Positions 3,542 to 54,985 of a DNA stretch of 63,229 nucleotides are shown here, piece by piece. Each line of letters starts with the position of its first letter. Position 1 is the stretch's first letter. The DNA comes from a delta proteobacterium ML8_F1 (GTDB lineage Bacteria > Bacillota > Clostridia > Peptostreptococcales > Acidaminobacteraceae): assembly GCA_002029975.1 (NCBI GenBank), contig LQBE01000054.1, positions 44,374 through 107,602 of the forward strand, given 5' to 3'. The notes beneath the pieces were generated by a model. The model saw only the letters and a list, made by a program, of their open reading frames with translations. It ran no database searches and was not told where the DNA came from. The position numbers and the translations under genes are program-made.

Positions 3542-5173
3542 CTATTTGATTTTCTCATTTGACTCTAAAAGCGTCGGAGTCAGGGCATTTTTGGCCTCAA
3601 AGATGAGAATAACCGCCAGGATGAAAAGTGCAATTGGGAAAAAGAGTAGTACTGGATTTGATAGATTGGCAAACATAAGAAGTACCAGTGCCAGGAGTGT
3701 TACTGTAAACATGAACACGATGGGGATGACAGCCATGGTGTAGTTTTTTCCTTCTTTTTTTAGCCAGAGGGCCAGGGTAAGGAGTGTCAAGGCGGCCAAT
3801 AACTGGTTGGCTGAACCAAAGAGCGGCCATATAGAACTCCATCCGTTAAAGGCCAAGGCACCACTAATGACAACGGTTATGGTGGTGGCTACAAATTTGT
3901 CACTCATCAGATTTGTGAGATTTGAAGTGGAGACATCTCCAGTGGGGTCCACCTCAAAGAACTCCTGGAAAATGAATCTGGCCAGGCGTGTGGCAGTATC
4001 AAGCGTGGTTAGGGCAAAGGCTGAGATTGAGAGGGTTACAAAAGTTTTTGCAATAGAGAAACTTATACCCATGGATGCAATAAAGGTTCCCAGACCATCA
4101 GCAAAAACATTCAGAGCTCCGCCGGTGCCCATTAATTCGGTAAGCCTTCCCTGGGAAATATATGCGGCGGACAGGATGGCCAAGGTAGCTAGAACACCTT
4201 CTATCAGCATGCCTCCGTAACCAATCAGTTGGATATCCGATTCATTATCAAGCTGTTTTGAGGTAGTCCCAGAACCGACAAGGGAATGGAATCCGGAGAT
4301 AGCGCCACAGGCCACTGTGATGAAGAGAATGGGAAACATGAAATTGTTGCCGACCTTGAAACTCGTAAATGCGGGAAGTTGAATCTCTGGTCTCAAAAAA
4401 ACAAGACCTAGAATACCACCTGCCAGCATGGCATACAGGATGAAGGAGTTGAGATAGTCCCTTGGCTGAAGCAGAATCCAGACGGGGGTCACCGAAGCAA
4501 TGAATATGTAAAGCAGTAAAATGATCATCCAGGTTTGTACGCTGAGGAGCAGTGGGAACCTTACTCCAGCCCAGATGATGGCAATCATGAGAACAACTCC
4601 GATGATGGTACCCATGGTCAGATTCATGCCACCTTTGTAGACCATCAAACCGAAGGCGACGGCAAGGAATATGAAAAGCATGGAAGCGGTTGCTGCTGAG
4701 GGAGTGGCTACGAAAGAAAGGGAGACGATGTTGACGAAGGCGGCGATGATCAGAATCAGGGTCAACCAGGCAAAAACTGCAAACAATTTCTTCCCCTTCC
4801 TCCCCATGGTTTCCCCGATGACTTCTCCAATGGACTTTCCATCATGTCTGACAGAAGCAAAGAGAGACCCCATGTCGTGAACGCCACCAAAGAAAACTGA
4901 TCCAATAACAATCCAGAGTAGAACCGGGAGCCATCCGAACATGGCGGCGGTGATTGGGCCGATAATCGGTCCGGCTCCTGAAATGGACGCGAAATGATGA
5001 CCCAGCAGGACTGGTGCCTTTGCAGGCACAAAATCAACCCCGTCGGTTTGCGTATGGGCAGGGGTTTTTCTCTGTGGATCCAGCCCCCATTGTTTCGAAA
5101 GCCATGCGCCATAAGTGGTGTAGGCTGCCAAAAAAGCGATGATGACGAAAATGATTAAGTAAAGCGAGTTCAT
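3542..5173 (-). CDS. CstA-family carbon-starvation transporter (copy 1)
   Basis: A 543-residue polytopic membrane protein of the CstA/BtsT family. Members move peptides or pyruvate; E. coli BtsT is a pyruvate/H+ symporter. The sequence shows the family motifs AYTTYGAWL, GHHFASISGAGPI, GGVHDMGS, SGFHSLVGSGTTSKQ and LDTATRLARFIFQE. The ATG at 5173 has an AAAGGAGG site; the reading frame extends further upstream but without a site. It closely resembles copy 2 (6731-8356) over the full length. It has its own terminator and a roughly 220-bp upstream region with possible operators. The substrate cannot be read from the sequence. Confidence 0.88.
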   Translation of the reverse strand: MNSLYLIIFVIIAFLAAYTTYGAWLSKQWGLDPQRKTPAHTQTDGVDFVPAKAPVLLGHHFASISGAGPIIGPITAAMFGWLPVLLWIVIGSVFFGGVHDMGSLFASVRHDGKSIGEVIGETMGRKGKKLFAVFAWLTLILIIAAFVNIVSLSFVATPSAATASMLFIFLAVAFGLMVYKGGMNLTMGTIIGVVLMIAIIWAGVRFPLLLSVQTWMIILLLYIFIASVTPVWILLQPRDYLNSFILYAMLAGGILGLVFLRPEIQLPAFTSFKVGNNFMFPILFITVACGAISGFHSLVGSGTTSKQLDNESDIQLIGYGGMLIEGVLATLAILSAAYISQGRLTELMGTGGALNVFADGLGTFIASMGISFSIAKTFVTLSISAFALTTLDTATRLARFIFQEFFEVDPTGDVSTSNLTNLMSDKFVATTITVVISGALAFNGWSSIWPLFGSANQLLAALTLLTLALWLKKEGKNYTMAVIPIVFMFTVTLLALVLLMFANLSNPVLLFFPIALFILAVILIFEAKNALTPTLLESNEKIK

Positions 5174-14100: not shown

Positions 14101-14360
14101 GGCACAAAGTGATGAAGAGAAGAGTAGATTGCGCTGCGGTGACAAGAGAGCCTGGCAAGGGTGGAATCCGGGTACTGAATCGCAATTGAAGATGGTCTCT
14201 GAGCAGAGCGGATGAGCTTTTCATGGTGAATCCCTACGGTGAGTGACGCCGTTAACGGTACAGTGTTTTGAACACAAAGAGGCTTTTAGAGGAATCTAAG
14301 AGTGAATTAGGGTGGTACCGCGAATAGCTTCGCCCCTAGGGTCTGAAGGTATTTTTTTAT
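14101..14360 (+). ncRNA. T-box riboswitch, Met specifier
   Basis: The T-box core AGGGTGGTACCGCG is at 14309-14322, followed by a terminator (CTTC..CCC paired with GGG..GAAG, then TTTTTTT near 14350). Stem I spans about 14115-14215. The specifier region reads TGAAG-ATG-GTCTCTGAG, placing an ATG codon (14192-14194) where the second T-box in this window has TAC. It therefore should sense uncharged tRNA-Met and allow read-through into metG. Confidence 0.9.
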
Positions 14361-19287: not shown

Positions 19288-19316
19288 TTGACAAAAGGGT
19301 GATAGATTTATAGAAT
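19288..19316 (+). promoter_or_regulatory. Promoter of the HesB-like selenoprotein/glutaredoxin operon
   Basis: TTGACA (19288-19293) and TAGAAT (19311-19316) with a 17-base spacer, 33 bases before the selenoprotein ATG. Confidence 0.75.
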
Positions 19317-19349
19317 AGTCGAAGACTATAAAAACTCACGGAGGATTTT

Positions 19350-19655
19350 ATGTCGATTCAAATTTCAGACAGGGCTCTTGGGCGGATCAGGGAAATACTG
19401 GGACAGACCGGTTTAAGTGAAAAACAGTTTGTCAGAATTTTCCTCAAAGGATTTACCTGAGGAGGGCCCGGCTTCGGCATTTCTCTGGATGAGAAATATC
19501 AAGAGGATCACCTCATCACCCTGGACGGGATACCCTTTGTAATAGAGGCATCGCTTTTCGAGGACTATCAAGACTTCGAAATCGATTATTCTGATAACTG
19601 GATGTCTAAGGGGTTTTTGGTCAGAGCCAGGTGGGCACCGCAAAGTCAATGTTAA
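19350..19655 (+). CDS. HesB/IscA-like selenoprotein (in-frame UGA = selenocysteine)
   Basis: A 101-residue reading frame interrupted by one UGA at 19458-19460 (codon 37). Translation through it gives FLKGFT-U-GGPGFGISLDE, the position where HesB/IscA-like proteins have Cys in the CGGP motif. The frame continues to a TAA at 19653-19655, with a sensible beta-rich second half. HesB-like selenoproteins with UGGP are a known clostridial family. The ATG has a CGGAGG site, and a 17-bp-spaced promoter lies upstream. The sequence just after UGA can fold into a stem (GGGCCCGGC TTC GGC region) as a bSECIS candidate. The glutaredoxin gene follows, and its ribosome site overlaps this stop. Confidence 0.85.
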
Positions 19656-19669
19656 GGAGGATTAATAAT

Positions 19670-19897
19670 ATGAAAAATGTCGTGATTTACACCAGCAACA
19701 CCTGCGGATATTGTCACGCAGCAAAGAAATTTCTGGAGTCTATGAGTGTGAACTATACAGAAAAGAATGTATCCGTCGACGCTGAAGCCAGAAAAGAGTT
19801 GATTCAAAAGGGCTTCATGGGTGTTCCGGTAATCATTGTGGACGAAGAAGTTGTCCAGGGATTCGATAAAGCAAAGCTTCAGGAATTGCTCGCTTAA
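19670..19897 (+). CDS. Glutaredoxin-like protein
   Basis: A 75-residue thioredoxin-fold protein with the CGYC redox pair (residues 10-13), the GVPVIIVDEE cis-Pro strand and a GFDKAKLQELL helix; it matches the short glutaredoxin/NrdH-like family. The ATG at 19670 has AAGGAGG 9 bases upstream, overlapping the end of the HesB-like gene. The operon pairing suggests it reduces the selenoprotein or delivers Fe-S/thiol equivalents; this is inference. Confidence 0.85.
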   Translation: MKNVVIYTSNTCGYCHAAKKFLESMSVNYTEKNVSVDAEARKELIQKGFMGVPVIIVDEEVVQGFDKAKLQELLA

Positions 19898-19905
19898 GGG
19901 AAAAG

Positions 19906-19931
19906 GTCCCCATTCCAAAGAGAATGGGGAC
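19906..19931. terminator. Bidirectional terminator after the glutaredoxin gene
   Basis: A 10-bp stem (GTCCCCATTC/GAATGGGGAC) with TTTTTTA on the plus strand and a U-run (CCTTTTCCC) on the minus strand. It serves the glutaredoxin gene and the convergent Crp/Fnr gene. Confidence 0.85.
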
Positions 19932-19935
19932 TTTT

Positions 19936-20607
19936 TTATCTGAAAAGTTCATCTTCCAGAGCCTCCATGTCCAGGATTGTGAATCGGGACTGCTCAAAAT
20001 CAATCCAACCGAGTTCCTTCATGTGGATGAGCTCCCTTGAGAGGGAAGGTCTTTCAACAGCCAGGTGTTCGGAAAGACGCTTGCGGTTGAGAGGAATCTC
20101 GAAACGGTTTGTTTTTTTTTGTCTGGCCTCCCCCAGCAGATACATGGCAATTTTTTTTCGAATGGTGCTGAGGGAAAGGATTTTTACCTTGGCGTTCATC
20201 TGGTAAAGCTTGTTGGACAGGAGCATCAGGAAGTTTTCCAGGAGAATGGGATGATGGAGCAGTCCGTGGACAAGTTTCTCTTTTTTGATTAAGAGCAGGG
20301 TAGTGGGGGTTTTTGTCTGGACGGTGACAGGGAACTGGTTGTGGGTGGAGAAAATCATGGCCTCGGCAAAGACCTCGCTTTCCCCCAGCTCCATGTGGGT
20401 GATTACCTTGCCGCTGGGAAAAATCGTCTGAAGCTCTACGGCGCCCTTGAGAACAATGGCAATCCCGTTGCAGTCCTCTTCTTCCATGAAAACAATTGTA
20501 TTCTTTTCATAAGTCTGAGTTTGGGTATCTATAAAACCGAGGAGATGCTGGATCTGGGATTCTGATAGCCCCCTGAAAAGCAGGGAATTCTTCAAGATAT
20601 TGTACAT
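19936..20607 (-). CDS. Crp/Fnr-family regulator, probable HcpR
   Basis: 223 residues: an N-terminal cyclic-nucleotide-binding-like domain (about 15-125) and a C-terminal winged helix (about 145-210) with recognition helix RKRLSEHLAVERPSLSREL. No FNR-type N-terminal Cys cluster is present. It is divergent from hcp, with a GTAAC-N4-GTTAC palindrome between. In clostridia such neighbours (HcpR) activate hcp under nitrosative stress. The assignment rests on context and fold. Confidence 0.8.
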   Translation of the reverse strand: MYNILKNSLLFRGLSESQIQHLLGFIDTQTQTYEKNTIVFMEEEDCNGIAIVLKGAVELQTIFPSGKVITHMELGESEVFAEAMIFSTHNQFPVTVQTKTPTTLLLIKKEKLVHGLLHHPILLENFLMLLSNKLYQMNAKVKILSLSTIRKKIAMYLLGEARQKKTNRFEIPLNRKRLSEHLAVERPSLSRELIHMKELGWIDFEQSRFTILDMEALEDELFR

Positions 20608-20621
20608 GGGACCTCCTAATC

Positions 20622-20635
20622 GTAACGCCTGTTAC
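20622..20635. promoter_or_regulatory. Crp/Fnr-type operator upstream of hcp
   Basis: A perfect palindrome GTAACGCCTGTTAC. Its centre (20628.5) is about 41.5 bases upstream of the start expected from the TATACT -10 at 20658-20663, the class II activator position. The other half of the region serves the divergent regulator, which could autoregulate. Confidence 0.7.
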
Positions 20636-20696
20636 ATATTTTATGTCTCACAATCAGTATACTGGATTGCGAGGTAGATTTTAAGGAGGAAATGAA

Positions 20697-22325
20697 ATGA
20701 GTATGTTTTGCTATCAATGCCAGGAGACTGCCAGGAATCAAGGGTGTACAGTCAAGGGGGTCTGCGGCAAGCCTGCGGATGTGGCTAATCTTCAGGATTT
20801 GCTGATTTATCTGACCAAGGGACTGGCAAAGGTCAATGCCATTGCCGAAGAAAACGGTCTTGACAATCCCGGGGTGGCCGTGGCCATCAAAGACAACCTC
20901 TTCACCACCATCACCAATGCCAACTTTGACAAGGAGGCAATTGTGAAGAAAATCAAGACCACCCTGAGTTTGAGAGAGGCTGTCAAAAGTGAACTTGGCC
21001 TTGACAACCAGGGACTGCATGACGCCGCTACATGGATTGCCGAAGATGTCCCGGCCATGGAGGAAAAAGCCCAGACCATCGGGGTGCTTTCTATTGAAAA
21101 CGAAGATGTTCGCTCACTGAAAGAATTGATCACCTACGGTCTCAAGGGCATGGCCGCCTATGGCGAGCATGCCTACAATCTCAAGGAGGTTGATCTCGAT
21201 GTCGACCACTTCATTCAGGAGACGATGTCTACGCTTTTGGATGAGGTTTCCGTTGAGGACCTGATTGCGCTCACCTTGAAGACCGGAGAGTACGGCGTCA
21301 AGGTGATGGCCCTGCTCGACAAGGCCAATACCCAGGCCTATGGCAATCCAGAGATTACCCAGGTGGATATCGGTGTCAGGAATCTTCCGGGCATTCTAGT
21401 CAGCGGCCATGATCTCAAGGATTTTGAGATGCTTTTGGAGCAGACCAAGGACCAGGGAATTCACATCTACACCCATAGTGAAATGCTGCCCGCCAACTAC
21501 TATCCCAAATTCAAGCAATACGAGCATTTTGTTGGAAACTACGGGAATGCCTGGTGGAAACAGGACAAGGAATTCGAGACCTTCAACGGCCCGATCTTGA
21601 TGACCACCAACTGCATTGTTCCGGTAAAAGACAGTTACAGGGACAGAATCTATACGACAGGGTCTGCTGGTTATCCGGGGGTGCCCCATATCGAAGCCGA
21701 TGACCAGGGTTATAAGAATTTTGGCAAAATCATTGAGCAGGCTAAAAAATCTCCGGCACCCACGGAGATTGAAAAGGGAACCATTATCGGGGGATTTGCC
21801 CATGACCAGGTGGTTCAGCTGGCGGACAAGATTGTAGATGCAGTGAAAACAGGCGCAATCCGGCAGTTCTTTGTAATGGCCGGCTGTGATGGCAGGATGA
21901 AGTCCAGGGAATACTATACGGAATTCGCTGAGGCGCTTCCAAAGGATACTGTCATTCTGACAGCGGGATGTGCGAAGTATCGATACAACAAACTGAATCT
22001 CGGAGACATCGGCGGCATTCCAAGAGTGCTTGATGCCGGACAGTGCAATGATTCCTATTCTCTTGCCGTCATTGCCCTGAAACTCAAGGAAATATTCCAG
22101 CTCAATGACATCAATGAGCTTCCCATCTCCTACAATATCGCCTGGTATGAGCAAAAGGCAGTCATTGTTCTTTTGGCTCTTCTGAGTCTCGGGGTCAAGG
22201 ATATTCACCTTGGACCGTCCTTGCCGGCATTTCTCTCTCCCAATGTTGTGAATGTCCTGGTGGAGAATTTCGGAATCGCCGGTATTAGCGATGTGGAGAA
22301 TGATCTGAAAATCTTTTTGGGATAA
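20697..22325 (+). CDS. hcp: Hybrid cluster protein (hydroxylamine/NO reductase)
   Basis: 542 residues. N-terminal Cys5, Cys8, Cys17 and Cys23 form the CX2CX8CX5C pattern of strict-anaerobe type Hcp that binds a cubane cluster. Hybrid-cluster ligands are visible in [27 protein letters not shown] and [13 protein letters not shown] plus GQCNDSYS. It protects from nitric oxide and hydroxylamine in the cytoplasm. An AAGGAGG site precedes the ATG. The putative HcpR gene and operator lie immediately upstream. Confidence 0.95.
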
Positions 22326-22362
22326 CAGGCAATCATTAGACGGCTGGATTAGAGTACATGGA

Positions 22363-22390
22363 AAGGACTTCGAAGGTTATCGGAGTCCTT
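22363..22390 (+). terminator. Terminator of hcp
   Basis: AAGGACT and AGTCCTT pair, with CG/CG extension in the loop, followed by TTTTTTG. Confidence 0.75.
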
Positions 22391-22447
22391 TTTTGTTCTA
22401 TAAAATTGTTAATATAATCTCAATCCCTTGCAATGACTCAATTAAGG

Positions 22448-22477
22448 TTGATAAGTAACGGCACAATAAGATATAAT
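22448..22477 (+). promoter_or_regulatory. Promoter of the CoA-disulfide reductase gene
   Basis: TTGATA at 22448-22453 and TATAAT at 22472-22477, 18-base spacer, about 100 bases before the ATG; the leader has no recognised riboswitch. Confidence 0.6.
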
Positions 22478-22577
22478 GGGTGTCGAAGACTCTCAATGTC
22501 ACTACTGAAGACCGCCATCATCCGGCGGGATCATTCAGTTACAGAATTTATTTCTGATCAAATTTGAGGAGGATGTC

Positions 22578-24323
22578 ATGTCGAAAAAAGTAATCGTTGT
22601 GGGCGGTGTTGCAGGCGGCGCCACAGCAGTAGCCCGTCTCAGAAGGGTGGATGATCATGCTGAGATCATCATGATGGAAAAGGGCGAATTCATTTCCTTT
22701 GCAAACTGTGGGTTGCCCTACTACGTGGGGGGTACGATTGAGGATAGGGAGTCCTTGCTCGTGCAGACCCCGGAGGCGATGGAAAGTCGCTTCAATGTTT
22801 CAGTCAGGACTTTTAATGAAGTCACCGCAATAGACAGAGAGAAGAAACTGGTTGAGGTGAAAAATCTCAAAACGGGGGAGGTCTATGAGGAAAGCTATGA
22901 TACCTTGCTGCTTTCTCCGGGCTCTGTTCCACTAAAGCCTCCGATTCCCGGAATCGATTCGCCCAATATCTTCACGCTTTGGACTATTCCCGATGTGGAC
23001 CAGATCAAGAGCTATGTCACAGAAAACGACATTCGGGAGGTAGCGGTCATCGGTGGCGGCTTTATCGGCATTGAAATGGCTGAAAATTTCAGAGAACTTG
23101 GCATCAGTGTAACCATTGTCGAGATGCTCGACCAGGTGATGGCCCCAATTGATTTTGATATGGCCCAGATTGTTCACCAGCATCTAAAGGATCATGGCGT
23201 GAACCTGGTCCTGGGTGATGGTGTGGATCATTTCGAAAATCAAGGCAAGCAAACCGATGTGGTCCTCAAAAGCGGCAACAGAGTCAAGGCGGACATGGTC
23301 ATGCTGTCCATCGGCGTCAGACCGCAGACAGAGCTGGCAAAGGCCGCCGGTCTTGAGGTTGGTCCCCGGGGACACATTGTCGTGGATGACTATATGATGA
23401 CCAGTGACGAGAATATTTATGCCATTGGTGATGCCATTGAAGTGGTGGATTATATCACGAAAACCAAAACAGCGGTTCCCCTGGCAGGGCCTGCCAACAA
23501 GCAAGGCAGGATCGCCGCCAACAATATCCTGGGCGACAAGAAGGAAAAATACAATGGCACTCAAGGGACGTCCATTGCAAAGGTCTTTGACATCTCAGTG
23601 GCTTCTACAGGTCACAATGAAAAAATGCTCAAGCGCAATGGCCTTGAACTCAGAAAAGACTATTTGAAAATGGTGCTTCATCCCAAGCATCATGTGGATT
23701 ACTATCCCGGTGCTGAAGCCATGACCCTCAAGGTTCTTTTTGACAGCAAGGGCAAAATTCTGGGTGCCCAGGGGATTGGTGGGGAAGGCGTGGACAAACG
23801 CATTGACATTATCGCCACCGCGATTCGCTTTGGCGCCACAGTCTACGACCTGAAGGAGCTTGAGCTGGCCTATGCGCCCCCCTACAATGGCGCAAAAGAT
23901 CCGGTCAACTTTGTCGGTTTCTTCGGGGAGAATATTCTCGAAGGCATGATTGACCTGGTTTTTGCCGACGAGGTTGCGCTTCAGGACAAGGAAAACACTG
24001 TTTTTCTGGACGTCCGCGGTCCTGAGGAGGTCGAGGCCAGAGGAAAAATTGCCGGATCTGTCAATATCCCTCTGGGGATGCTGAGAAATCGACTGAGCGA
24101 ACTCGATGCTTCGAAGAAGATTGTGGTCTACTGCATCATGGGTGTTTCCGGTTATGTGGCCACAAGGATTCTCAAACAGAACGGCTTCGACAAGGTCTAC
24201 AATCTGGCCGGAGGCTATCAGAGCTATTCCATCGAGTTCTGCCAAGAGGGATCAGACCTCAGCAGCTGTGGCGGACATGTCTATGAAAAAGCAGAATTTA
24301 CAGAAGCGGGAGAAGCAGAATAG
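22578..24323 (+). CDS. CoA-disulfide reductase with C-terminal rhodanese domain (CoADR-Rhd)
   Basis: A 581-residue flavoprotein. The FAD motif GGVAGGATA (9-17), the single active Cys44 in SFANCGLPYY, the NAD motif GGGFIGIEMAE and the C-terminal dimer segment match CoA-disulfide reductases. The rhodanese domain (about 455-550) carries VVYCIMGVSGY with the catalytic Cys. Known relatives reduce CoA disulfide, polysulfide or CoA persulfide. The tail adds two more Cys (FCQEG, SSCGGH). Context is redox stress, next to hcp and a TlpA protein. Confidence 0.9.
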   Translation: MSKKVIVVGGVAGGATAVARLRRVDDHAEIIMMEKGEFISFANCGLPYYVGGTIEDRESLLVQTPEAMESRFNVSVRTFNEVTAIDREKKLVEVKNLKTGEVYEESYDTLLLSPGSVPLKPPIPGIDSPNIFTLWTIPDVDQIKSYVTENDIREVAVIGGGFIGIEMAENFRELGISVTIVEMLDQVMAPIDFDMAQIVHQHLKDHGVNLVLGDGVDHFENQGKQTDVVLKSGNRVKADMVMLSIGVRPQTELAKAAGLEVGPRGHIVVDDYMMTSDENIYAIGDAIEVVDYITKTKTAVPLAGPANKQGRIAANNILGDKKEKYNGTQGTSIAKVFDISVASTGHNEKMLKRNGLELRKDYLKMVLHPKHHVDYYPGAEAMTLKVLFDSKGKILGAQGIGGEGVDKRIDIIATAIRFGATVYDLKELELAYAPPYNGAKDPVNFVGFFGENILEGMIDLVFADEVALQDKENTVFLDVRGPEEVEARGKIAGSVNIPLGMLRNRLSELDASKKIVVYCIMGVSGYVATRILKQNGFDKVYNLAGGYQSYSIEFCQEGSDLSSCGGHVYEKAEFTEAGEAE

Positions 24324-24400
24324 GCAGCAGATAGAGAGTCACAGAGATTGAAGGGAGTGGGCCCGTGAGTGCCTGCTCCCTTTGTATAGGAGGAGTAGTG

Positions 24401-24979
24401 GTGATAAAGAAGATTATCAGTCTCACAACTGTATTGATGGTCATGGTAGTGCTTGTTTCAGGATGTGCCGCTGAGGTTGCCGTGAAAGTCGCCGATGAGG
24501 CCACCCCCCCTGCAAAGCCTGCCGCCTCAGAGGAGGAAGCTGTTGAAGAAGGCGCTTTTCCGGGGATGAGGGCTTATGATTTCATGCTTGAGGATTTTGA
24601 GGGGAATTCAGTCAGGCTTTCGGACTTTCAGGGGAAAACCGTGATGCTTTTTTTCTGGGCCTCCTGGTGTCCCTACTGCGGAGAACAGATGACACAGATG
24701 AGTCGGCTGTATGCGGAGCTTGATCCCGATCGTTACGTGATTCTCGGCATCAACCTTATTGAGGCGGAAAAAAATCGCGACGATGCACTGAACAAGATTG
24801 AGGAAAAACAGGCAGAGTTCATTAATCTCATGGATGCTCAAAGCGAAGTTTCCCTCAAGTACGGCGCCCGGACGATTCCCCTGAGTGTTTTTATTGACCC
24901 TGATGGTATCATTACGGCCAGTATTGTGGGTCCCCTGGATGAAGGTCAGATCATGGCTCAGTTCATGGGAGCCAATTGA
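24401..24979 (+). CDS. TlpA/ResA-like thioredoxin lipoprotein
   Basis: About 192 residues. The lipobox LVSGC gives a lipid-anchored protein outside the membrane, followed by an Ala/Glu/Pro-rich linker. The AhpC/TSA-TlpA fold follows with the active WASWCPYC motif and the cis-Pro ARTIPLSVFID. The GTG at 24401 is 7 bases from AGGAGG and gives a proper signal peptide; a GTG at 24398 is also possible. It is probably a thiol-disulfide reductase serving extracytoplasmic proteins such as the rhodanese lipoproteins; this link is inference. Confidence 0.85.
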   Translation: MIKKIISLTTVLMVMVVLVSGCAAEVAVKVADEATPPAKPAASEEEAVEEGAFPGMRAYDFMLEDFEGNSVRLSDFQGKTVMLFFWASWCPYCGEQMTQMSRLYAELDPDRYVILGINLIEAEKNRDDALNKIEEKQAEFINLMDAQSEVSLKYGARTIPLSVFIDPDGIITASIVGPLDEGQIMAQFMGAN

Positions 24980-24991
24980 TTATGAAGACAA

Positions 24992-25017
24992 GGGGGATTC
25001 CCGGCCGGGGGTCCCCC
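24992..25017 (+). terminator. Terminator of the TlpA-like gene
   Basis: GGGGGA pairs with TCCCCC around an inner CCCGGCCGGG palindrome, followed by TTTGTTTT. Confidence 0.75.
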
Positions 25018-25095
25018 TTTGTTTTATTGGGAATAGATCCGGGAACTGTGCCGGTTCAAGGGCTTTACCGGGAACAGTAGCGGGTGACAGAGGAA

Positions 25096-25140
25096 TTGAC
25101 CTTTTAACAAGAGAATGATAAAATTAATGTAATGATTACA
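25096..25140 (+). promoter_or_regulatory. Promoter with PerR-type box for the oxygen-defence operon
   Basis: TTGACC (25096-25101) and TAAAAT (25119-25124) with a 17-base spacer. The perfect palindrome TGTAATGATTACA (25128-25140) lies right after the -10, over the expected transcript start, so it is placed for repression. It fits the PerR consensus (TAAT-N-ATTA core). A perR-like gene is third in the operon. Confidence 0.7.
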
Positions 25141-25223
25141 ACTTTGAAAGAAAATAGTTCATTAATTTTATTTACAATGGGTATCATACTATTACATCGA
25201 TTATGAAAAGTGAGGTGAAATCA

Positions 25224-25388
25224 ATGCAAAAGTATATTTGTACCGCATGCAGCTACATCTATGATCCCGAGCTTGGGGATGAAGATGGCGGCATTGCACC
25301 GGGAACCGCCTTTGAGGACATTCCAGAGGACTGGATTTGTCCGGTCTGCGGTGTTGGCAAGGATTTGTTTGAAATCTATGAAGGATAG
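25224..25388 (+). CDS. Rubredoxin 1
   Basis: 54 residues with the two iron-binding knuckles CTAC and CPVC and the [12 protein letters not shown] core. The ATG at 25224 has GAGGTG 6 bases upstream; an upstream in-frame ATG (25203) lacks a site. A small cytoplasmic electron carrier, likely donor to superoxide reductase and rubrerythrin encoded in the same operon. It differs from rubredoxin 2 at few positions, indicating a tandem duplication. Confidence 0.93.
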
Positions 25389-25407
25389 AAATAAAGGGAG
25401 GAAAAAA

Positions 25408-25566
25408 ATGAAATATGTTTGCACTGCCTGTCAGTACGTTTATGATCCAGAGTTGGGGGACCTCGATGGAGGGATTGCTCCGGGAACAGCCTTTGAAGAT
25501 ATTCCGGAAGACTGGGTATGCCCGGTCTGCGGTGTTGGAAAGGACATGTTCGAACCGGTAGAGTAA
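25408..25566 (+). CDS. Rubredoxin 2
   Basis: 52 residues, CTAC and CPVC knuckles, nearly the same core as rubredoxin 1 ([16 protein letters not shown] in both). The ATG at 25408 follows GGAGG. Tandem rubredoxins give dosage or partner choice for the operon's peroxide and superoxide reductases. Confidence 0.93.
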
Positions 25567-25584
25567 GCTGAAAGGATGTTCTTT

Positions 25585-26010
25585 GTGAATAAAACAGTCA
25601 TTGACAATGTTGGAGAGTATTTGAAATCCAATGAAATCAAACCATCCTTTCAGAGGATAAGAATTTTTGAATACCTTTTGAATTCAAAAGAACATCCGAA
25701 GGTAGATGATATCTATCGCAGTTTGATCAGTGAAATTCCGACATTGTCCAAAACGACGGTTTACAATACCCTCAACCTCTTCATGGAAAAGGGTATTGTT
25801 CATCTTGTAACCATTGAAGGCACAGAAAACCGCTATGATGTGAATGTTGAGGACCACGGCCATTTCAAGTGTGAGGTCTGTGGCAGGGTCTATGATTTTG
25901 AGCTGCTGGAACTGGTTCTTGAAACGGACCTGCCAGAGGGCTTTGTCGTGAAAAAAAAGGATCTGTTTTTTAGAGGAATCTGTGAGGAATGCTACCAGAA
26001 AATGAATTAG
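25585..26010 (+). CDS. perR: Fur-family regulator, probable PerR
   Basis: About 141 residues: an N-terminal winged helix ([13 protein letters not shown] is the recognition region), then the C-terminal metal domain with [10 protein letters not shown] and CEECY zinc Cys pairs. The HGHFKC motif and the neighbours (rubredoxins, superoxide reductase, rubrerythrin) support PerR over Fur. The GTG at 25585 has AAAGG 9 bases upstream; the ATG at 25576 is an alternative. It likely represses its own operon through the palindrome at 25128. Confidence 0.82.
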
Positions 26011-26020
26011 GAGTGTTGAT

Positions 26021-26404
26021 ATGCCAAAAAGACTAGAAGTTTACAAATGTGAGAAATGCGGAAACATTGTCCAGGTCCATGAGGGCAGTGAGTTTCCTCT
26101 TGTTTGTTGCGGCCAGGAAATGACGCTGCTAGAGGAACAAAATGCAGACCAGACGACAGAAAAGCATGTGCCTATGATTGAGGCCATAGAGGGTGGATAC
26201 AAGGTTACAGTCGGTTCCACCATTCATCCCATGACCGATGCCCATTATATCCAGTGGATCCAGCTCATCACCGATGAAGAGGTGGTGATGACGGCCTATC
26301 TCAAGCCCGGTCAGGAACCAGTGGCGGTTTTCAAGACAGACGCCAGGAAGGTGACCGCCAGGGAGTTTTGCAACATTCACGGCTTGTGGAAAAACGAAGC
26401 CTAA
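26021..26404 (+). CDS. Desulfoferrodoxin (superoxide reductase)
   Basis: 127 residues. The N-terminal desulforedoxin domain binds iron through CEKC and CC (residues 10-13 and 29-30). The C-terminal superoxide reductase centre shows the His ligands in [19 protein letters not shown] and the CNIHGLW Cys/His pair. It reduces superoxide to peroxide with electrons from rubredoxin. It is the fourth gene of the PerR-type operon. Confidence 0.95.
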
Positions 26405-26424
26405 TAATTTCATAGGAGGATTAC

Positions 26425-26937
26425 ATGATCAGTCAGAAGATGCAAGATGCCATTAACGCACAAATCAACGAAGAACTTTTTTCGTCCTATCTCTATCTGT
26501 CCATGTCAGCTTTTTTTGAGGACATGAGTTTGACAGGGTTTGCCAACTGGATGAGAATACAGGCTCAGGAAGAACAGTTCCATGCGATGAAATTTTTCGA
26601 CTACTTGAACGAAAGAGGCGGAAAAGTCGAGCTCCTGGCTATTGAAAAACCGGAAAATCAATGGAAGGACATTGTGACGGTTTTTGAACAGACCCAAAAG
26701 CATGAAGAGCACATCACAGCAAAGATCAATGAATTGGTCAAGATTGCCTCCGATGAGAATGACTATGCCTCCAGCAATTTTTTACAGTGGTACGTCAATG
26801 AGCAGGTTGAGGAGGAAGCAACAGCTTCAGAAATCCTCGAACAGATACGGTTCCTCGGAGAAAACAAACACGGGATTCTGATGCTGGACAGAGAATTCAA
26901 AGGCAGAAGTTTCCAGGCACCCGTTGACGGGGAGTAG
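26425..26937 (+). CDS. ftnA: Ferritin
   Basis: A 170-residue four-helix ferritin with ferroxidase residues in the NEELFSSYLYLSM and EEQFHAMKFFDYL helices and in NEQVEEEATA. A non-haem iron store that limits Fenton chemistry; a fitting member of the peroxide operon. AGGAGG precedes the ATG. Confidence 0.93.
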   Translation: MISQKMQDAINAQINEELFSSYLYLSMSAFFEDMSLTGFANWMRIQAQEEQFHAMKFFDYLNERGGKVELLAIEKPENQWKDIVTVFEQTQKHEEHITAKINELVKIASDENDYASSNFLQWYVNEQVEEEATASEILEQIRFLGENKHGILMLDREFKGRSFQAPVDGE

Positions 26938-26962
26938 TCAAAGAAACGAAGGGAGAAAGTAG

Positions 26963-27538
26963 ATGAATAGCATTAAAGGAACAGCAACTGAAAAGAATCT
27001 ATTGAAATCCTTTGCGGGTGAATCCCAGGCCAGACAGCGCTATGTGATGTTTGCCCAAAGGGCTCGGGAAGAAGGCTATGAGCAGATTGCCAGATTTTTT
27101 GAAGAAACCGCAGACAACGAGCGGGTGCATGCCGCGCGATTCTTCGGCTACCTTGAGGGTGGCATGGTGACCATTGAGGCGGCCTATCCGGCGGGTAAAG
27201 TGGGAACCACTTTGGAAAACCTTCTTGAGGCGGCGGCAGGTGAAAATGAAGAGCACACCGAGCTGTATCCGGCTTTTGCAAAGGTGGCCAAGGAAGAGGG
27301 ATTTTCGGAAATTGCTTCAGCCTGGCTGATGATTGCCAAGGTCGAGGTGGAGCATGAAAAGAGATATTTGAAGCTGGCGGAGAATCTCAAGGAAGGCAAG
27401 GTCTTCAAGAGAGACAGTGCGGTTCGTTGGAAATGTGAACTCTGCGGCTATGTTCATGAAGGACCGGAGGCTCCCAATGTCTGTCCGTCATGTCTGGAAA
27501 AACAGAATCAGTTTGGGTTGAAGGAATCCAACTACTGA
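26963..27538 (+). CDS. Rubrerythrin
   Basis: 191 residues. The diiron four-helix domain (about 1-140) has the ExxR/ExxH ligands (GESQARQRY, ETADNERVHA, AAAGENEEHTE, KVEVEHEKR). The C-terminal rubredoxin-like domain has CELCGYV and CPSC. It is an NADH/rubredoxin-linked peroxide reductase and the last gene of the operon, followed by a terminator. Confidence 0.95.
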   Translation: MNSIKGTATEKNLLKSFAGESQARQRYVMFAQRAREEGYEQIARFFEETADNERVHAARFFGYLEGGMVTIEAAYPAGKVGTTLENLLEAAAGENEEHTELYPAFAKVAKEEGFSEIASAWLMIAKVEVEHEKRYLKLAENLKEGKVFKRDSAVRWKCELCGYVHEGPEAPNVCPSCLEKQNQFGLKESNY

Positions 27539-54800: not shown

Positions 54801-54857
54801 AGAAATTCGCTAATCTATCCAGTATTGTGGTATAATTTTTGTGAAAATTGAATAGCA

Positions 54858-54985
54858 GTTTTCTGGTTGTCCTTTGGACATAACAAGGAAGTCCGGTGAA
54901 ATTCCGGCACGGTCCCGCCACTGTAAAAGTCGTAAAGACTTAAAGTCAGATACTTACCAGTTAACCCAGTATCACAATTCTCACG
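54858..54985 (+). ncRNA. Cobalamin riboswitch
   Basis: The core is clear: AAGGAAG, CCGGTGAAATTCCGG, then CGGTCCCGCCACTGTAA (the B12 box, about 54909-54926) and AGTCAGATACTTACC. The ligand is expected to be adenosylcobalamin or another corrinoid. It is followed by a terminator and the BtuF-like gene, so corrinoid should switch the transporter off. Confidence 0.92.

Follow-up and report, generated by a model that had tools for sequence, protein, structure and literature searches.

A HesB-like selenoprotein gene with a single C-terminal cysteine and an adjoining glutaredoxin gene in delta proteobacterium ML8_F1

The listing of HesB-like selenoproteins goes back to 2005 or earlier (PMC1088965), and they are catalogued under TIGR01911 with the motif UxGP (PMC13188914; PMC9312934); these statements, and those on the literature below, follow the available parts of the papers cited. 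In one survey, the family was sixth by organism number, with 90 proteins from 86 organisms (PMC5029168). Another survey was unable to cluster it, the sequences being short and diverged (PMC1914089). The HesB-like protein of Methanococcus maripaludis was found via mutagenesis and 75Se labelling, and its function is given as "not clear" (PMC11097638). Selenoprotein glutaredoxins and UXX-star proteins are both among the listed selenoprotein families (PMC13188914). An earlier note on the DNA analysed here, made from the letters alone, had stated that HesB-like UGGP selenoproteins are known while their job is unresolved, which agrees with the published lists (PMC13188914) and with the wording quoted above (PMC11097638).

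The gene described here is a divergent member of this known family (TIGR01911) and is not a new kind of gene. What we add, for the relatives sampled, is a split of the family into two tail types, the occurrence of one of them, with a single cysteine, only as selenoprotein, and a linkage to glutaredoxin genes which is confined to that type. The available parts of PMC1794560, PMC13188914, PMC11097638, PMC1242214, and PMC9312934 describe neither a split by tail nor a linkage to glutaredoxin genes, and neither was found in those of PMC1914089, PMC5029168, PMC1088965, and PMC2933860; a prior description elsewhere is possible.

The window, that is, the whole stretch of DNA analysed, comprises 63,229 nt from delta proteobacterium ML8_F1 (GCA_002029975.1, contig LQBE01000054.1, positions 44,374–107,602, forward strand). 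The features of the two-gene unit are as follows.

19288–19316, + strand: sigma-70-type promoter-like site, −35 TTGACA, 17 nt, −10 TAGAAT (consensus scan, 11 of 12 matches)
19340–19344, + strand: Shine-Dalgarno sequence GGAGG of the HesB-like gene (read from the sequence)
19350–19655, + strand: HesB-like selenoprotein gene, start codon ATG, 101 aa, with Sec37 and a single cysteine, Cys101, at the C terminus
19458–19460, + strand: in-frame UGA for selenocysteine at codon 37, the alignment position of the family's first conserved Cys
19479–19497, + strand: SECIS-type hairpin, stem 19479–19485/19491–19497, loop 19486–19490 (from folding, covariation, and its loss in most Cys homologues)
19655–19660, + strand: Shine-Dalgarno sequence AGGAGG of the glutaredoxin gene (read from the sequence)
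19670–19897, + strand: glutaredoxin gene, 75 aa, active site CGYC (PF00462, E 1.1e-18)
19906–19937, + strand: intrinsic-terminator-like stem GTCCCCATTC/GAATGGGGAC followed by TTTTTT, ending the two-gene unit (read directly)

The TGA at 19458–19460 is the sole break in the frame 19350–19655, which is terminated by TAA at 19653–19655; the glutaredoxin gene starts 14 nt past this TAA. The earlier note had described a promoter, a ribosome site, and a frame interrupted only by a UGA at the family Cys, with coding continuing to a TAA and a glutaredoxin gene behind it. All of these could be recovered, and for the position of the UGA frame and alignment both agree. The promoter-like site is a predicted one, a consensus match and not proof of function. 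The terminator scan listed the stem at 19906–19937 for the − strand only. From this arrangement, the HesB-like gene and the glutaredoxin gene apparently share one transcription unit. An ordinary ORF listing (at least 60 aa) omits the gene at 19350–19655, as had been foreseen for standard gene callers.

The earlier note had named selA, selB, selD, and tRNA-Sec as the machinery to be looked for, and all four are present in the genome of strain ML8_F1. The tRNA-Sec scores 69.4 bits (cut-off 47), selB scores above its cut-off, and selD, selA, and selB are consecutive on one contig (C35). The selD gene (about 1637–2701 of locus L049, + strand) itself has an in-frame TGA in SGUAAK, which we take to be the known Sec position of selD; its plain ORF begins too late. 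Glycine reductase selenoprotein A gave no match in this genome, and the controls likewise gave no match.

Matches to the HesB-like protein at E<=0.001 were found in 51 of the 61 genomes searched (its own included), the closest with exactly one TGA, and the gene is therefore more than a chance frame. The UGA is kept at the same codon in relatives, namely in each of the 120 sampled genes with a single-Cys tail, and U37-GGP is invariant in an alignment of 20 relatives; a paralogue in the same genome also has a TGA. Frame decay beyond the UGA, which the note had named as a sign against its reading, is not seen. Against a same-genus relative, dN is 0.30 and dS 1.71 upstream of the UGA, with 0.14 and 1.81 downstream, dS being near saturation. 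Downstream dN is below upstream dN in seven of the eight pairs compared (the exception is L055/L056), so that purifying selection persists past the UGA.

The hairpin directly after the UGA has a core of six pairs (19480–19485 with 19491–19496). It was analysed in a gap-free alignment of 45 nt from the UGA for 100 window-type sequences, no two of which are more than 93% identical; with the UGA as columns 1–3, columns 23–28 pair with 34–39 around a five-base loop. Paired cells amount to 93.0% (shuffled mean 76.1%) and covariation to 0.516 (0.199 when shuffled), and neither value was reached in any of 500 shuffles; sliding the stem partner gave a covariation of 0.152 at best. Two of the five measures were not exceptional, the number of pairs changed on both sides (5, equalled in 68 of 500 shuffles) and that of further pair types (15, equalled in 86 of 500). 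Two codon comparisons rely on protein-silent changes, with ancestry ignored. In the 85 sequences with a Glu codon at columns 34–36, every C26 (71 of 71) is accompanied by GAG, and 11 of 13 U26 by GAA; in the 48 with a Leu codon at columns 22–24, G24 goes with C38 in 34 of 34 cases and other bases go with other partners in 13 of 14.

The stem is complete, with its six pairs, in 74 of the 100 single-Cys Sec genes and 15 of 21 multi-Cys Sec genes, compared to one of the 22 Cys genes which served as negative control. The loop base G30 occurs in 94 of 100, 17 of 21, and 7 of 22 of these, respectively. G31 is found in all genes, including 22 of 22 Cys genes, and is uninformative on SECIS function for this reason, reflecting an Asp codon. 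A quick rule for bacterial SECIS elements asks for a hairpin of at least four pairs with G as the first or second loop base; it holds for 56 of the 60 sequences scoring best, a count without a control, to which we give no weight. When the window sequence is folded alone, the hairpin appears with a stability no greater than that of shuffled sequences (z 0.14 to 0.32), and minimum-free-energy folding was discarded as uninformative. The element which the note had suggested to look for is thus present just after the UGA, is upheld by compensatory and synonymous changes, and is mostly lost in Cys relatives. That a few Cys genes retain some of the pairing is consistent with the remnant SECIS-like structures reported for a Cys HesB-like gene (in the available parts of PMC1794560).

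From this genomic evidence, we are nearly certain that the UGA at 19458–19460 is decoded as selenocysteine. If the UGA were a real stop, the gene would be a decayed or truncated pseudogene, and nothing but the in-frame stop itself favours this. It is contradicted by the Sec machinery in the genome, by the purifying selection downstream of the UGA, by the presence of the UGA in each of the 120 single-Cys genes, which represent 27 families, and by a hairpin which covaries and is mostly lost in Cys homologues; we consider the chance of a pseudogene negligible.

Pfam gave no family for the HesB-like protein at E<=0.001, and its assignment is based on NCBIfam, a PDB profile search, and the predicted fold. 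The score is 54.2 bits for TIGR01911 (HesB_rel_seleno; cut-off 66.35), which only one of the 10 relatives tested passes (L012, 69.9), and 55 bits for NF038090 (IscA_HesB_Se; cut-off 85), which none of the 10 passes (best 77.5). For TIGR00049 (iron-sulfur cluster assembly accessory protein) it is 36.6 bits (cut-off 58.8), so that the protein is below every equivalog cut-off it was scored against. It has the Sec or Cys at UxGP/CxGP of the HesB domain which is characteristic of HesB-like proteins, in the form U37-GGP, together with UGA decoding by the cellular machinery and a SECIS element. It resembles the HesB-like selenoproteins of TIGR01911 and NF038090 in family, Sec at UxGP, length, and UGA decoding. 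It differs from them in being below both cut-offs and in its single C-terminal Cys and glutaredoxin partner, of which the available parts of the published descriptions make no mention.

A-type carriers have three conserved cysteines as Fe-S ligands, the first Cys and a C-terminal CxC. The window protein has only Sec37 and Cys101. A PDB profile search with 20 relatives retrieved IscA-family structures (1nwb, E 2e-15; IscA 1s98 and 1r94). In these comparisons, the lone C-terminal Cys aligns with the end-of-match Cys in 1nwb and 2apn and with position 99 of IscA 1s98, which we take to be the first Cys of its C-terminal CxC motif. An AlphaFold2 model computed from four sequences has the A-type fold (pLDDT 77, pTM 0.67), with a poorly predicted C-terminal tail (pLDDT 67 at residues 91–100 and 49 at residue 101). 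Foldseek matched it to IscA 1r94 (E 5.1e-6), to 1x0g and SufA 2d2a, and more weakly to DsrR of Allochromatium vinosum (2k4z, E 4.9e-4). With IscA/SufA/ErpA, the protein thus has in common the predicted fold and two aligned ligand positions, but Sec replaces the first Cys and the second Cys of the C-terminal CxC is absent. DsrR, with which it has the A-type fold in common, is not known to be a selenoprotein and belongs to a sulfur-oxidation cluster.

The glutaredoxin scores 67.6 bits for PF00462 (gathering score 22.9), with CGYC as its CxxC motif, and 82.7 bits for TIGR02196, below the cut-off of 88.55; its PDB match is 7c10 (E 1.9e-25). It has a glutaredoxin-like fold in common with selenoprotein glutaredoxins and UXX-star proteins (PF00462, NF041212) but is without Sec.

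To place the window gene among its relatives, 166 distinct genes were collected by script from 214 loci, which cover part of the genome matches. A tail was called multi-Cys when the last 25 residues held three Cys or a CxxC. The single-Cys type, to which the window gene belongs, has Sec in 120 of 120 genes. The multi-Cys type (46 genes) has Sec in 24 and Cys in 22. Among the single-Cys genes, the whole protein has one Cys in 103, two in 15, and none in 2, and the last Cys is at most two residues from the end in 116 of 120. Multi-Cys proteins belong to the same family, have Sec or Cys at the same place, and carry the same hairpin when they are Sec members; they differ in their CxxC-rich C-terminal tail and in having no adjoining glutaredoxin at 46 loci.

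Cys members were searched for at 40 further loci with no stop in the table entry, some of them already in the sample. Of the 41 Cys-type rows obtained, 40 contain several Cys and end in a tail that is Cys-rich or holds CGCG, which in four cases was recognised only on reading further back from the end; the remaining one (L245) is an odd sequence without motif or terminal Cys. Four more rows are UGA genes. A scan of the genome contigs for the Cys form of one ten-residue core pattern returned nine stretches, with three relatives (L069–L071), all with Cys-rich tails; the pattern back-translates Cys, and Sec forms can thus not be counted by it. A pattern scan of viral contigs gave two matches, rejected by eye as the frames at both are not HesB-like. 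No clear Cys form of the single-Cys type was found in the 166 genes and the 40 further no-stop loci. On a weakly resolved tree, tail type and Sec/Cys state each change eight times, and an independent-pairs test of one against the other has just two or three pairs on well-supported branches, too few for significance. The restriction of the single-Cys type to Sec is therefore best read as a consistent pattern in the sample, not as a proven rule, and may owe something to shared ancestry.

A second HesB-like selenoprotein gene in the genome of strain ML8_F1 (about 4090–4404, + strand, of L050, i.e. G000:C8:17500–25500; also L048) belongs to the multi-Cys type, with the UGA in GMGUSGP and the tail CSSCGGTCG, and is preceded by trp-like genes (by eye). 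At three loci (L031, L033, L034), two HesB-like genes stand in tandem; the Cys gene has a Cys-rich tail, the UGA gene a short one, and the two might act as a pair.

A downstream glutaredoxin gene on the same strand within about 1 kb was found for 43 of 107 single-Cys genes and for none of 40 multi-Cys genes when loci with at least 1.4 kb were considered, and for 44 of 120 and none of 46 without length limit. (A spurious second glutaredoxin row with 0 bits at L193, where a real one also occurs, was passed over.) The linkage is found in six of the 27 families sampled, at 21 of 27 genes in f1, 4 of 4 in f5, 2 of 2 in f7, 12 of 14 in f11, 2 of 2 in f12, and 3 of 3 in f33; in the other 21 families it is seen at none of 68 single-Cys genes. 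For 7 of the 76 unlinked single-Cys genes, the flanking sequence is too short to tell. Linkage changes four times on the tree. The dithiol motif CxYC is common to all 44 linked glutaredoxins. Their genes are on the same strand as the HesB-like gene, at a distance of either 10–82 nt or 538–974 nt; in the second arrangement, a small membrane-protein-like gene usually precedes the glutaredoxin. Among the matches listed, orthologues of the glutaredoxin score equally high in genomes whose sole HesB-type match lacks the UGA (for example G016, G011, G036, and G028).

The small membrane-protein-like gene with two Cys-rich motifs (HCSxYCPRG, CxxCPMG) occurs at 19 single-Cys loci (L062:4405–4920, + strand, and 18 others), 15 of which also have the glutaredoxin. 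It has no Pfam family at E<=1e-5; from its Cys motifs, as read by eye, it appears NapH-like and may be an electron-transfer partner. A CoA-disulfide-reductase-like neighbour was seen at 19 single-Cys loci and one multi-Cys locus, and a recU-like gene lies upstream on the opposite strand at 21 single-Cys loci. Glutaredoxins of the same type which carry an in-frame TGA are among the matches listed in genomes with unlinked HesB (G443:C164, G449:C58, G453:C1, G460:C10, G465:C15, G466:C35, G477:C13, G487:C33, and G037:C8). In other genomes with unlinked HesB, the glutaredoxin listed is without TGA, whilst a second copy in some linked genomes does carry one.

In the window, recU is located upstream of the HesB-like gene on the other strand, preceded by ksgA, a toprim gene, and tatD-like and metS-like genes (the latter two named by eye). 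The region 19936–27538 codes for a Crp/Fnr-type regulator, hydroxylamine reductase (Hcp), a CoA-disulfide-reductase-like protein with a rhodanese domain, a thioredoxin-like protein, two rubredoxins, a Fur-family regulator, desulfoferrodoxin, ferritin, and rubrerythrin. It looks like the oxygen/nitrosative stress neighbourhood of an anaerobe, from which the HesB-glutaredoxin unit seems to be separate. A TusA gene is found elsewhere in the window, 18 kb from the HesB-like gene. The window also contains a T-box leader (14103–14340) ahead of a gene which by eye resembles those for methionyl-tRNA synthetase, as well as a cobalamin riboswitch (54847–54975).

From what is observed above on gene, Sec machinery, hairpin, residue pattern, and linkage, we infer a mechanism in which the selenylsulfide, the substrate, and the glutaredoxin as reductant are the conjectural parts. 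A 101-residue protein of the predicted HesB/IscA fold is, almost certainly, made by UGA decoding with SelB, tRNA-Sec, and the hairpin in the following codons. Besides Sec37, its sole other chalcogen residue is Cys101, at the position of the first C-terminal Cys ligand of IscA (the second one is absent). Sec37 and Cys101 could form a selenol/thiol pair. Sec37 would attack an oxidised or persulfidic substrate, the product would resolve as a Sec37-Cys101 selenylsulfide, and the CGYC glutaredoxin from the two-gene unit would reduce it. The iron-sulfur carrier fold would then serve as a small selenium-dependent oxidoreductase, probably with a role in redox, reactive-sulfur, or oxygen/nitrosative stress. 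We hold the selenylsulfide and its reduction by the adjoining glutaredoxin to be plausible, at a little short of an even chance, and the explanation as a whole, Sec decoding of an A-type protein included, to be evenly balanced. Contrary to it are the linkage in just six of 27 families and the presence of the glutaredoxin orthologue where the UGA-type HesB is missing.

The earlier note had left the choice between a Sec/thiol redox module and a module for Fe-S or Se delivery. As a carrier of Fe-S clusters (or Fe), two subunits would ligate a cluster through two Sec and two Cys residues, the glutaredoxin inserting or removing clusters or keeping the ligands reduced. The predicted A-type fold (IscA 1r94, 1x0g, SufA 2d2a), the match to TIGR00049 below its cut-off, and Sec37 and Cys101 at two of the three IscA ligand positions fit such a carrier; the fold and the two kept ligand positions would suit chalcogen carriage as well. 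However, the second C-terminal Cys is absent, the linked glutaredoxins have the dithiol motif CxYC, and no Cys form of the single-Cys type occurs in the sample even though Cys should suffice as a ligand. A sample without Cys forms is easier to reconcile with catalysis than with ligand binding, and the shortened tail agrees with catalysis as well. Moreover, a disruption mutant of the HesB-like gene of M. maripaludis, which may be of either tail type, still fixed nitrogen (an unpublished observation cited in the available part of PMC11097638). We consider an Fe-S carrier unlikely, although not far-fetched.

Sec reacts well as a nucleophile with sulfane sulfur, and Sec37 could instead hold a per-selenide or persulfide for delivery, to be released by the glutaredoxin. 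This nucleophilicity, the CoA-disulfide-reductase-like neighbours (that of the window with its rhodanese domain), and the TusA gene would agree with a selenium/sulfur carrier; yet the TusA gene is 18 kb distant, and among the recurrent neighbours listed neither selD nor a sulfurtransferase cascade was recognised, which makes such a carrier improbable. Finally, the pairing might reflect chromosome history only, the HesB gene occupying a conserved ksgA-recU site and the glutaredoxin being a general housekeeping redoxin. The recU-like gene at 21 single-Cys loci, the glutaredoxin in genomes without the single-Cys type, and the linkage in six of 27 families with four changes on the tree point in this direction. 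Against it, the glutaredoxin keeps its strand through both distance arrangements, is linked as well in f33 (3 of 3), which is of the same class but outside the order, and never adjoins the multi-Cys type (0 of 46, 40 of these with at least 1.4 kb). We judge this to be rather unlikely; it is compatible with any of the other readings, and the probabilities expressed here thus do not sum to one. Overall, the functional data lean, not decisively, to redox over Fe-S/Se delivery.

Taken together, the Sec machinery, the hairpin, the UGA homologues, and the intact frame bear out the central claim of the earlier note, that a HesB/IscA-like selenoprotein and a glutaredoxin are encoded in one unit. The window gene scores below the NCBI cut-offs and would probably be missed by annotation, and annotators could gain a better model from these findings. 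With the split into two types, a single Sec/Cys pair, and a glutaredoxin alongside, the function of the family becomes a direct question, namely whether Sec37 and Cys101 form a selenylsulfide which this glutaredoxin reduces. Tentatively, and with more doubt than for that bond itself, we suggest that this branch of the HesB-like proteins may have left the Fe-S machinery, shedding the cluster-binding CxC tail and retaining Sec37 and one terminal Cys, with no Cys version in nature, to become an oxidoreductase working through a selenylsulfide, with a dithiol glutaredoxin of its own encoded alongside in many lineages. If this is true, an iron-sulfur carrier fold would have turned into an obligate selenoenzyme.
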